Positions 1,246 through 6,822 of a DNA stretch of 64,000 nucleotides are shown here, in pieces (positions within the stretch are counted from its first letter, which is position 1; each line of letters begins with the position of its first letter). This stretch comes from Pachyseris speciosa (Eukaryota; Cnidaria; Anthozoa; Scleractinia; Pachyseridae), in the NCBI GenBank assembly GCA_016490735.1, contig JAEMWC010000048.1, positions 273,501 to 337,500 of the forward strand. Reading direction: 5' to 3'. The notes beneath the pieces were generated by a model. The model saw only the letters and a program-made list of their open reading frames with translations, was not told the DNA's origin and did not search any database. Made by a program: the position numbers and the translations under genes.

Positions 1246-1351
1246 GATATACCTCACAAATTAATGTGATTTGGTAAGCTGAAGCCTCTCTAAAGGCACT
1301 AAGGCCACATGGTAGCGGGCATTACCCCTTAAATCTACCAAAGCAAAGATT

Positions 1352-1432
1352 GAGCCCAAGCATTAGCAGCCATGGACAGCTGTTTCGGCCTTGTTAGGCC
1401 TCATCAGCATGGCATAGCTAATGCTCAGGCTC
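1352..1432 (-). ncRNA. Type I hammerhead ribozyme (first unit, representative)
   Basis: Read on the minus strand from 1432 to 1352. Stem I 5' strand is GAGCC, AGCATTAGC and CCATG blocks; then the core CTGATGA, stem II GGCC-TAACAA-GGCC, GAA, stem III as the palindrome ACAGCTGT, cleavage triplet GTC, and stem I 3' strand CATGG, GCTAATGCT and GGCTC. The three stem I blocks pair exactly, separated by small internal loops. Predicted cleavage is between minus-strand positions 1375 and 1374. The short palindromic stem III suggests action as a dimer or in a multimeric transcript. The same fold repeats every 256 bp. Confidence 0.9.
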
Positions 1433-4400
1433 AAGTACCCACATATCCATAAAACAAGCAGTGAAAACGTAAAGCTTGTGGGATGTGGCTGGAGTGACAA
1501 GGATATACCTCACAAATTAATGTGATTTGGTAAGCTGAAGCCTCTCTAAAGGCACTAAGGCCACATGGTAGCGGGCATTACCCCTTAAATCTACCAAAGC
1601 AAAGATTGAGCCCAAGCATTAGCAGCCATGGACAGCTGTTTCGGCCTTGTTAGGCCTCATCAGCATGGCATAGCTAATGCTCAGGCTCAAGTACCCACAT
1701 ATCCATAAAACAGGCAGTGAAAACGTAAAGCTTGTGGGATGTGGCTGGAGTGACAAGGATATACCTCACAAATTAATGTGATTTGGTAAGCTGAAGCCAC
1801 TCTAAAGGCACTAAGGCCACATGGTAGCGGGCATTACCCCTTAAATCTACCAAAGCAAAGATTGAGCCCAAGCATTACCAGCCATGGACAGCTGTTTCGG
1901 CCTTGTTAGGCCTCATCAGCGTGGCATAGCTAATGCTCAGGCTCAAGTACCCACATATCCATAAAACAAGCAGTGAAAACGTAAAGCTTGTGGGATGTGG
2001 CTGGAGTGACAAGGATATACCTCACAAATTAATGTGATTTGGTAAGCTGAAGCCACTCTAAAGGCACTAAGGCCACATGGTAGCGGGCATTACCCCTTAA
2101 ATCTACCAAAGCAAAGATTGAGCCCAAGCATTAGCAGCCATGGACAGCTGTTTCGGCCTTGTTAGGCCTCATCAGCATGGCATAGCTAATGCTCAGGCTC
2201 AAGTACCCACATATCCATAAAACAAGCAGTGAAAACGTAAAGCTTGCGGGATGTGGCTGGAGTGACAAGGATATACCTCACAAATTAATGTGATTTGGTA
2301 AGCTGAAGCCACTCTAAAGGCACTAAGGCCACATGGTAGCAGGCATTACCCCTTAAATCTACCAAAGCAAAGATTGAGCCCAAGCATTAGCAGCCATGGA
2401 CAGCTGTTTCGGCCTTGTTAGGCCTCATCAGCATGGCATAGCTAATGCTCAGGCTCAAGTACCCACATATCCATAAAACAAGCAGTGAAAACGTAAAGCT
2501 TGTGGGATGTGGCTGGAGTGACAAGGATATACCTCACAAATTAATGTGATTTGGTAAGCTGAAGCCACTCTAAAGGCACTAAGGCCACATGGTAGCGGGC
2601 ATTACGCCTTAAATCTACCAAAGCAAAGATTGAGCCCAAGCATTACCAGCCATGGACAGCTGTTTCGGCCTTGTTAGGCCTCATCACCATGGCATAGCTA
2701 ATGCTCAGGCTCAAGTACCCACATATCCATAAAACAGGCAGTGAAAACGTAAAGCTTGTGGGATGTGGCTGGAGTGACAAGGATATACCTCACAAATTAA
2801 TGTGATTTGGTAAGCTGAAGCCTCTCTAAAGGCACTAAGGCCACATGGTAGCGGGCATTACCCCTTAAATCTACCAAAGCAAAGATTGAGCCCAAGCATT
2901 AGCAGCCATGGACAGCTGTTTCGGCCTTGTTAGGCCTCATCAGCGTGGCATAGCTAATGCTCAGGCTCAAGTACCCACATATCCATAAAACAAGCAGTGA
3001 AAACGTAAAGCTTGTGGGATGTGGCTGGAGTGACAAGGATATACCTCACAAATTAATGTGATTTGGTAAGCTGAAGCCACTCTAAAGGCACTAAGGCCAC
3101 ATGGTAGCGGGCATTACCCCTTAAATCTACCAAAGCAAAGATTGAGCCCAAGCATTAGCAGCCATGGACAGCTGTTTCGGCCTTGTTAGGCCTCATCAGC
3201 ATGGCATAGCTAATGCTCAGGCTCAAGTACCCACATATCCATAAAACAAGCAGTGAAAACGTAAAGCTTGTGGGATGTGGCTGGAGTGACAAGGATATAC
3301 CTCACAAATTAATGTGATTTGGTAAGCTGAAGCCACTCTAAAGGCACTAAGGCCACATGGTAGCAGGCATTACCCCTTAAATCTACCAAAGCAAAGATTG
3401 AGCCCAAGCATTAGCAGCCATGGACAGCTGTTTCGGCCTTGTTAGGCCTCATCAGCATGGCATAGCTAATGCTCAGGCTCAAGTACCCACATATCCATAA
3501 AACAAGCAGTGAAAACGTAAAGCTTGTGGGATGTGGCTGGAGTGACAAGGATATACCTCACAAATTAATGTGATTTGGTAAGCTGAAGCCACTCTAAAGG
3601 CACTAAGGCCACATGGTAGCGGGCATTACGCCTTAAATCTACCAAAGCAAAGATTGAGCCCAAGCATTACCAGCCATGGACAGCTGTTTCGGCCTTGTTA
3701 GGCCTCATCAGCATGGCATAGCTAATGCTCAGGCTCAAGTACCCACATATCCATAAAACAAGCAGTGAAAACGTAAAGCTTGTGGGATGTGGCTGGAGTG
3801 ACAAGGATATACCTCACAAATTAATGTGATTTGGTAAGCTGAAGCCACTCTAAAGGCACTAAGGCCACATGGTAGCAGGCATTACCCCTTAAATCTACCA
3901 AAGCAAAGATTGAGCCCAAGCATTAGCAGCCATGGACAGCTGTTTCGGCCTTGTTAGGCCTCATCAGCATGGCATAGCTAATGCTCAGGCTCAAGTACCC
4001 ACATATCCATAAAACAAGCAGTGAAAACGTAAAGCTTGTGGGATGTGGCTGGAGTGACAAGGATATACCTCACAAATTAATGTGATTTGGTAAGCTGAAG
4101 CCACTCTAAAGGCACTAAGGCCACATGGTAGCAGGCATTACCCCTTAAATCTACCAAAGCAAAGATTGAGCCCAAGCATTAGCAGCCATGGACAGCTGTT
4201 TCGGCCTTGTTAGGCCTCATCAGCATGGCATAGCTAATGCTCAGGCTCAAGTACCCACATATCCATAAAACAAGCAGTGAAAACGTAAAGCTTGTGGGAT
4301 GTGGCTGGAGTGACAAGGATATACCTCACAAATTAATGTGATTTGGTAAGCTGAAGCCACTCTAAAGGCACTAAGGCCACATGGTAGCGGGCATTACGCC

Positions 4401-6822
4401 TTAAATCTACCAAAGCAAAGATTGAGCCCAAGCATTAGCAGCCATGGACAGCTGTTTCGGCCTTGTTAGGCCTCATCAGCATGGCATAGCTAATGCTCAG
4501 GCTCAAGTACCCACATATCCATAAAACAAGCAGTGAAAACGTAAAGCTTGTGGGATGTGGCTGGAGTGACAAGGATATACCTCACAAATTAATGTGATTT
4601 GGTAAGCTGAAGCCACTCTAAAGGCACTAAGGCCACATGGTAGCGGGCATTACCCCTTAAATCTACCAAAGCAAAGATTGAGCCCAAGCATTAGCAGCCA
4701 TGGACAGCTGTTTCGGCCTTGTTAGGCCTCATCAGCATGGCATAGCTAATGCTCAGGCTCAAGTACCCACATATCCATAAAACAAGCAGTGAAAACGTAA
4801 AGCTTGTGGGATGTGGCTGGAGTGACAAGGATATACCTCACAAATTAATGTGATTTGGTAAGCTGAAGCCACTCTAAAGGCACTAAGGCCACATGGTAGC
4901 AGGCATTACCCCTTAAATCTACCAAAGCAAAGATTGAGCCCAAGCATTAGCAGCCATGGACAGCTGTTTCGGCCTTGTTAGGCCTCATCAGCATGGCATA
5001 GCTAATGCTCAGGCTCAAGTACCCACATATCCATAAAACAGGCAGTGAAAACGTAAAGCTTGTGGGATGTGGCTGGAGTGACAAGGATATACCTCACAAA
5101 TTAATGTGATTTGGTAAGCTGAAGCCACTCTAAAGGCACTAAGGCCACATGGTAGCGGGCATTAGCCCTTAAATCTACCAAAGCAAAGATTGAGCCCAAG
5201 CATTACCAGCCATGGACAGCTGTTTTGGCCTTGTTAGGCCTCATCAGCGTGGCATAGCTAATGCTCAGGCTCAAGTACCCACATATCCATAAAACAAGCA
5301 GTGAAAACGTAAAGCTTGTGGGATGTGGCTGGAGTGACAAGGATATACCTCACAAATTAATGTGATTTGGTAAGCTGAAGCCACTCTAAAGGCACTAAGG
5401 CCACATGGTAGCGGGCATTACCCCTTAAATCTACCAAAGCAAAGATTGAGCCCAAGCATTAGCAGCCATGGACAGCTGTTTCGGCCTTGTTAGGCCTCAT
5501 CAGCATGGCATAGCTAATGCTCAGGCTCAAGTACCCACATATCCATAAAACAAGCAGTGAAAACGTAAAGCTTGTGGGATGTGGCTGGAGTGACAAGGAT
5601 ATACCTCACAAATTAATGTGATTTGGTAAGCTGAAGCCACTCTAAAGTCACTAAGGCCACATGGTAGCAGGCATTACCCCTTAAATCTACCAAAGCAAAG
5701 ATTGAGCCCAAGCATTAGCAGCCATGGACAGCTGTTTCGGCCTTGTTAGGCCTCATCAGCATGGCATAGCTAATGCTCAGGCTCAAGTACCCACATATCC
5801 ATAAAACAGGCAGTGAAAACGTAAAGCTTGTGGGATGTGGCTGGAGTGACAAGGATATACCTCACAAATTAATGTGATTTGGTAAGCTGAAGCCACTCTA
5901 AAGGCACTAAGGCCACATGGTAGCGGGCATTAGCCCTTAAATCTACCAAAGCAAAGATTGAGCCCAAGCATTACCAGCCATGGACAGCTGTTTTGGCCTT
6001 GTTAGGCCTCATCAGCGTGGCATAGCTAATGCTCAGGCTCAAGTACCCACATATCCATAAAACAAGCAGTGAAAACGTAAAGCTTGTGGGATGTGGCTGG
6101 AGTGACAAGGATATACCTCACAAATTAATGTGATTTGGTAAGCTGAAGCCACTCTAAAGGCACTAAGGCCACATGGTAGCAGGCATTACCCCTTAAATCT
6201 ACCAAAGCAAAGATTGAGCCCAAGCATTAGCAGCCATGGACAGCTGTTTCGGCCTTGTTAGGCCTCATCAGCATGGCATAGCTAATGCTCAGGCTCAAGT
6301 ACCCACATATCCATAAAACAGGCAGTGAAAACGTAAAGCTTGTGGGATGTGGCTGGAGTGACAAGGATATACCTCACAAATTAATGTGATTTGGTAAGCT
6401 GAAGCCACTCTAAAGGCACTAAGGCCACATGGTAGCGGGCATTAGCCCTTAAATCTACCAAAGCAAAGATTGAGCCCAAGCATTACCAGCCATGGACAGC
6501 TGTTTTGGCCTTGTTAGGCCTCATCAGCGTGGCATAGCTAATGCTCAGGCTCAAGTACCCACATATCCATAAAACAAGCAGTGAAAACGTAAAGCTTGTG
6601 GGATGTGGCTGGAGTGACAAGGATATACCTCACAAATTAATGTGATTTGGTAAGCTGAAGCCACTCTAAAGGCACTAAGGCCACATGGTAGCGGGCATTA
6701 CGCCTTAAATCTACCAAAGCAAAGATTGAGCCCAAGCATTAGCAGCCATGGACAGCTGTTTCGGCCTTGTTAGGCCTCATCAGCATGGCATAGCTAATGC
6801 TCAGGCTCAAGTACCCACATAG

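Follow-up and report, generated by a model that had tools for sequence, protein, structure and literature searches.

Animal retrozymes of the kind that lack long terminal repeats (LTRs) are known as tandem copies, and in the stony coral Acropora millepora their arrays range from dimers to 62-mers, according to the accessible parts of the account of these non-LTR elements (PMC7229834). The same parts of that account put forward Penelope-like elements (PLEs) as strong candidates for the machinery that moves them, on the grounds of common hammerhead ribozymes, tandem copies and co-occurrence, and a 2024 review, in the sections available, still gives the mover as either long interspersed nuclear elements (LINEs) or PLEs (PMC11722881). 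Among the PLEs themselves, the Pen families of Adineta are described, in the available portion of the source, as having inverted pseudo-LTRs (pLTRs) and a 31-bp tail on one inverted pLTR (PMC3846280), and the PLE of the anole (PAc) has been found in vitro to cleave and extend both strands, using two internal starts whose interval equals the tail (PMC11167929). In the literature covered, which did not extend to supplements or to most subscription papers, we found neither structural evidence for the machinery that moves animal retrozymes nor a description of paired starts or inverted arms in retrozymes. Here we describe a retrozyme array from the coral Pachyseris speciosa, contained in a stretch of 64,000 nucleotides (contig JAEMWC010000048.1, positions 273,501 to 337,500) that was analysed as a whole and is called the window below. 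The array is a newly found member of the animal non-LTR retrozymes, and we consider it probable (at about 0.7) that the locus is a single insertion of such an element, made by two-ended target-primed reverse transcription at a staggered break, most likely with the help of a PLE acting in trans.

The direct arm of the element (positions 1245-6821, with the RNA sense on the minus strand) consists of 21.8 tandem units of 256 bp that show 98% matches and 0% indels in Tandem Repeats Finder, which bears out the array of about 21.8 units proposed in a first-pass annotation that had been made from the letters of the window alone. What that annotation did not mention is that the direct array passes uninterrupted, through a joint of 2-nt microhomology, into an inverted arm of 1.48 units (6822-7199, plus strand), that both arms are enclosed by one perfect 15-bp target-site duplication (TSD), and that a second retrozyme copy lies in the same window. 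The TSD, CAGCCTTATCATTTG, occupies positions 1231-1245 on the left, where it overlaps the element by 1 nt on the inner side, and 7200-7214 on the right; it scores 15, and 0/1118 cross-paired controls reach 12. The start of the complementary DNA (cDNA) lies at unit position 2 (site A) in the direct arm and at unit position 226 (site B) in the inverted arm. The array is therefore one arm of a TSD-bounded, two-armed insertion, and this bears on the mechanism by which it arose. The second copy (~56600-57000) follows the same two-armed plan between TSDs of 15-16 bp, (T)AATATGAATTACACG at 56584-56599 and its partner at 57000-57015, with the difference that its direct arm, of about 1 lap, starts from position 215 (site B) and its inverted arm, of about 0.6 lap, from about 256 (site A); these arms are joined at a 6-nt microhomology, and the copy carries a single hammerhead (RF02275, 29.1 bits). 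The arrangement of the array and its sister copy suggests that both were pasted in by a Penelope copying enzyme. That the locus is instead plain satellite DNA, expanded in place and with an incidental hammerhead, would account for the 256-bp tandem periodicity and for repeated blocks within the array, yet this explanation is hardly credible in view of the perfect TSD, the inverted arm, the dispersed two-armed relatives at other targets, and the 88-nt hammerhead segment, which is identical in 43 of the 121 copies examined.

The dispersed relatives come from a search of the assembly (984 Mb in 2368 contigs) in which 95 matches were listed and 40 of 133 candidates were scored, and the 34 loci analysed comprise 32 fetched stretches and the two copies in the window. 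Two of the stretches, L022 and L023, carry the same sequence in opposite orientations, and L036 and L038 are apparently one insertion, judging by their flanks. A TSD score of at least 11 was found at 14/34 loci as compared to 3/1118 cross-paired controls, and a score of at least 13 at 13/34 loci as compared to 0/1118. A further locus, L035, has a 14-bp TSD with one mismatch (its score of 10 is reached by 7/1118 controls), and a retrozyme insertion outside the 34, found by chance in a stretch fetched for its PLE (L051), also has a TSD of 14 bp, which brings the TSD-bearing retrozyme insertions to 16, with TSD lengths of 13-16 bp. Fifteen of these 16 are two-armed and head-to-head within one TSD, as expected of a Penelope-type insertion, and in every one of the 15 the two outer ends are divided between zone A (256-5) and zone B (210-226), with one end in each. 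The start zones (~1 and 215-225) had been recorded from the window copies before the other loci were retrieved, so that 13 of the 15 two-armed insertions were examined afterwards, with the final widths of the zones being set after the data had been seen. The start positions, given as left/right, are 2/226 for the window array, 215/256 for the second window copy, 221/4 for L009, 2/214 for L012, 210/2 for L013, 3/219 for L015, 220/1 for L016, 214/4 for L017, 223/3 for L019, 223/2 for L021, 3/216 for L025, 217/3 for L029, 220/2 for L032, 212/5 for L035 and 2/215 for L051. The interval from A to B is 32-49 nt in all 15, and it gives one terminus of each insertion a tail comparable to the 30-40 nt expected of the Penelope type. 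The short arms of L032 and L051 measure ~15 and ~26 nt, respectively. Fifteen mixed A/B pairs have a chance of 3e-5 if each end chooses freely between the zones, and a far smaller one if ends are uniformly placed. The sixteenth TSD-bearing insertion, L014, has one arm only, with a start in zone B; this start, the B end of L032 and the first sighting of L051 were read by eye.

A candidate for the machinery, separate from the retrozyme, lies in the same window at 53439-55507 on the minus strand, where a 5'-truncated element with reverse-transcriptase pieces is bounded by 316-bp inverted termini and a 14-bp TSD, ATGATAATTTTGTT. On sequence grounds this element is a probable PLE, as judged by homologues that have a reverse-transcriptase domain, the anatomy of its ends and a motif resembling GIY-YIG that was picked out by eye; named relatives of its protein piece (among the best 120 of 4825) come from Oculina, Montipora, Acropora, Pocillopora and a sea urchin. 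Each of its termini has a hammerhead-like motif by pattern search, and a 29-nt tail extends the right end only. Two other copies, L053 and L054, likewise carry a tail at one end and none at the other; they lie within 12-bp TSDs and have an additional 5-7 nt on the tailed side, so that 3/3 two-armed PLE copies show this asymmetry with a 29-nt tail. One-armed PLE copies with TSDs were also seen (L013, 12 bp; L049, 10-11 bp; L052, 16-18 bp), the copies being drawn from 40 listed of 1433 candidates, few of which were fetched; no partner end was found for the PLE copies at L045, L048, L050 and L051, and L046 and L047, which have an identical flank, stood outside the test of ends. A diverged (78-79%) second copy of the PLE terminus, which ends without a tail, is located at 50151-50613 of the window. 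It is because of the TSDs, the A and B starts, the same anatomy in the window PLE, L053 and L054, and the biochemistry of the anole enzyme that we favor a Penelope-type insertion for the retrozyme.

Twin priming yields inverted 5' parts and microhomology joints, and it occurs in a minority of L1 insertions. The first of these properties speaks for, and the second against, the proposal that a LINE made the retrozyme insertions and that their inverted arms are the product of LINE-type twin priming. LINE-like reverse-transcriptase pieces are present in the window, and LINEs are one of the two movers named in the available sections of the 2024 review (PMC11722881). However, two-armed structures account for 15/16 of the TSD-bearing insertions, and twin priming gives no reason to expect two fixed starts that are separated by 32-49 nt and always represented once each; on this comparison with the expected behavior of LINEs, we regard a LINE origin as improbable.

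Several observations weigh against a Penelope-type insertion, and some of them concern the retrozyme loci themselves. Nineteen of the 34 loci have no TSD, either under the scoring rule or as a one-mismatch match of the L035 type, and one of these, L031, is two-armed with starts at 170 and 19, both outside zones A and B. Other two-armed loci without a TSD are L028, which has A and B starts, L020, in which the left end is a gap of Ns and the right end is at B, and L024, which is complex. In L019 (at 2801) and L035 (at 2986) the arms meet at an identical inner joint (247/212) even though the target sites differ, and independent joining offers no explanation for this. Since the anole PLE uses start sites in vitro that are alike on both strands (PMC11167929), strict pairing of A with B is not something that it predicts. 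In a comparison confined to the PLE family of the window, the retrozyme unit resembles the PLE in nothing more than a 27-nt match with an E-value of 0.33. As for the PLE, only 3/6 TSD-bearing copies are two-armed, and the shorter of their TSDs (L049, 10-11 bp) lack a control and may be due to chance; its termini yield no Rfam hammerhead at an E-value of 2 or better, Pfam calls no endonuclease in its pieces, a predicted structure is of low confidence (mean predicted local distance difference test score 46), and no intact PLE gene was found. A profile search of the PLE piece against solved structures gave weak reverse-transcriptase matches only (best E-value 0.0023).

The hammerheads were detected with Rfam models reported by E-value over positions 1-7500, and all 22 direct units match a hammerhead family on the minus strand, in keeping with the type I hammerhead retrozyme proposed in the first-pass annotation. 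The covariance check suggested there gave a best E-value of 1.4e-5, yet none of the units reaches the gathering score, and at the gathering threshold no hammerhead matches are listed for the whole window. The shortfall is small for most of them: 16/22 units match RF00163 at 33.9 bits with that E-value, 0.1 bit under the gathering score of 34, and units 3 and 7 score 29.6 bits with the same model, their stem I being weakened by a mismatch next to the core. Units 6, 16, 19 and 21 match only RF02275, at 23-26 bits (gathering score 52), and have a change in the catalytic core. Read 5' to 3' on the minus strand, each unit presents an interrupted stem I, CTGATGA, stem II (GGCC/GGCC with a TAACAA loop), GAAAC, a short stem III and GTC, an arrangement that occupies positions 1369-1413 in unit 1 and recurs each 256 bp through the 22 units. 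CTGATGA and GAAAC had been claimed for every unit, and the claim stands for the 18/22 units in which CTGATGA...GAAA is exact; it fails for units 16, 19 and 21, in which the G of GAAA is replaced by A, a change expected to inactivate the hammerhead, and for unit 6, in which the first C of CTGATGA is replaced by G. Mutating that C abolishes the activity of the anole PLE hammerhead (PMC11167929). Over the 70 nt compared, 15/22 units have the consensus sequence, and unit 10 deviates solely in outer stem I. The window as a whole contains 31 matches to CTGATGA...GAAA as compared to 4.5 expected from shuffles. The circular fold of the unit, which has a GC content of 46%, is predicted at -92.4 kcal/mol as compared to -68.0 for shuffles (z -5.5; 0/200 shuffles equally low). 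At another locus (L012, 3752-6739), GAAAC is replaced in 6/12 units, and CTGATGAGGCC-loop-GGCCTCATCAG forms a perfect palindrome there; this palindromic change looks as if it had been self-templated by the stem II hairpin.

Where the arms start and end in relation to the hammerhead is informative about the template. Site A lies 126-131 nt and site B 161-177 nt past the predicted hammerhead cut, the cDNA spans this cut up to 22 times, and 0/34 arm ends fall within 3 nt of it. These features argue against linear monomers, released by the hammerhead, having been copied from one end to the other, and run-off at the cut was likewise rejected on the last count. The template is thus continuous across the cut, i.e., it is either a circle or an uncut multimer. 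The second of these alternatives, in which a pre-existing array was transcribed into a linear multimer that stayed uncut and served as the template of the long arms, with insertion by a PLE in the same two-ended manner, is a serious contender, though we think it the less probable. Two variants, A43T and A213G, are intermixed in the window array and in L012 and are present at other loci as well, and in both arrays neighboring units are no more similar to each other than shuffled ones; furthermore, hammerhead cleavage is dispensable for the anole element, for which unprocessed RNA is the main substrate (PMC11167929). On the other side, a 22-mer transcript with an intact core motif in 18/22 units would be expected to be cut, the 17.5 laps of L009 are almost uniform, and 7/34 arm ends form a cluster at 212-216, next to site B, as expected for a closed circle. 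This cluster was noticed post hoc and is compatible with synthesis on a circle that halts at the other start.

The long array could also have grown in place, if a short two-armed retrozyme was inserted first and the 22 units arose later through unequal DNA exchange. Blocks 14-16 and 17-19 of the window array differ from each other by a single base, units 20-21 likewise repeat units 18-19, and there is a weak period-3 signal (p 0.02, for one of 8 offsets tried). We nevertheless consider later growth rather unlikely, as arms of 3.5, 3.0 and 3.1 kb are found at L009, L012 and L020, respectively, L009 has very few unit variants, and the TSD around the window array remains free of mismatches. The mixed variants and the repeated blocks together imply that the template was mixed, that units were exchanged later, or both. 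That one RNA templated both arms of an insertion was tried as a general explanation and not upheld: private variants agree between the arms of L021 (T18G, T66A), L013 (G219A) and the second window copy, but the partner arm is the closest relative, or tied for it, at 7/14 loci only, with a mean divergence of 2.7% within and 5.1% between loci. An origin of the inverted arm by fold-back of the first cDNA is also unlikely, because C82G is present in the adjacent direct unit of the window array but absent from the inverted arm, though C82G could have arisen by later mutation.

Taking the two-ended, Penelope-type insertion as the preferred reading, we infer that minus-strand transcripts would cut themselves at their type I hammerheads into 256-nt monomers, which would be ligated into circles. 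A PLE protein supplied in trans would cut the two strands of the target 13-16 nt apart, as the TSD lengths indicate, leaving 3' overhangs, and each 3' end would prime cDNA internally on the RNA, with one cDNA beginning at site A and its counterpart 32-49 nt downstream of that, at site B. Synthesis would continue across the hammerhead cut (22 times in the case of the window array) until the two cDNA 3' ends were joined, often via short microhomology; the mean at 15 joints is 2.3 nt as compared to 0.7 expected, with 8 nt in L012. Repair would then leave a TSD, an arm, an inverted arm and a TSD, and a long array may have been reshuffled by unit exchange or have been copied from a mixed template. 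Beyond this locus we propose, tentatively and at somewhat less than even odds, that animal retrozymes parasitise Penelope-type machinery by offering one small circular RNA on which cDNA is always started at A from one end of the break and at B from the other, and which is copied through as many as 22 laps until the cDNAs are joined. Strict pairing of A with B, if true, would mean that the two primers engage the same RNA or a single asymmetric dimer of the enzyme. A paired-start rule of this kind, if true, could be checked in any animal genome, would point to the type of enzyme that should be purified, and would suggest circular RNA as a rolling template for chromosomal insertion.

Elsewhere in the window, a G protein-coupled receptor gene lies at 46900-47937, and its named relatives (among the best 120 of 216) are from Pocillopora and Stylophora only, with 57-68% identity. 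Pieces of another retroelement with RVT_1 reverse-transcriptase similarity are found at 43691-45060. The segment 57535-60263 contains a Pox_A32-like ATPase piece (E-value 0.0005, under the Pfam cut-off) beside several unassigned frames, and we take it to be perhaps a remnant of a Maverick or an adintovirus-like element. Other repeats include an imperfect 318-bp tandem duplication (33300-33948) with a minus-strand tRNA gene in each copy (53 and 29 bits), a 56-bp unit repeated 7 times with 98% matches (29069-29462), and short telomere-like runs at 23722-23795 and 24344-24425, with TTAGGG on one side and a CCCTAA-like sequence on the other.

Among known systems, the plant LTR retrozymes resemble the coral element, in the available parts of the accounts, in being non-autonomous and ribozyme-processed with a presumed circular RNA; they differ in having a type III hammerhead, LTRs and a 4-bp TSD, with Gypsy elements as their presumed movers (PMC4918200, PMC7761336, PMC11722881). 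The type I architecture and the 15-bp TSD speak against identity with them. No matches were found to three hammerhead and unit patterns in the viral_contigs collection, nor any relatives in a phage collection, although records near the genome of the window may have been excluded from both. The closest described relatives are the animal non-LTR retrozymes, which the accessible parts of the account characterize by a type I hammerhead, a unit of 170-400 nt, a GC content under 50%, a TSD of more than 4 bp, and tandem copies in a stony-coral host, Acropora millepora (PMC7229834). The element at hand has a type I hammerhead in each unit, a 256-bp tandem period (within a range of ~150-450), a GC content under 50%, a TSD well over 4 bp and, by prediction, a strongly self-paired circular fold. 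Its length is inside the known range, and because of the 62-mers of A. millepora the description of the array as unusually long in the first-pass annotation finds no support. It differs in that the published accounts, in the same accessible parts, have neither inverted arms nor paired fixed starts. As for an autonomous PLE, there are no open reading frames of at least 110 amino acids inside 1245-7199 and the 256-bp unit is too small for a reverse transcriptase/GIY-YIG gene; PLEs encode a reverse transcriptase and an endonuclease, whereas no coding is seen in the coral retrozyme. The lack of a gene of its own makes it less likely that the element is a PLE, but not that it was inserted like one. 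It also differs from the PLEs in having a full type I hammerhead and a tail of 32-49 nt with a ragged start, and it shares with the Pen elements of Adineta, as described in the available portion of the source, and with PAc of the anole the head-to-head termini, the TSD around the whole insert, the one-sided tail of 30-40 nt, the internal starts and a hammerhead near the start region (PMC3846280, PMC11167929).

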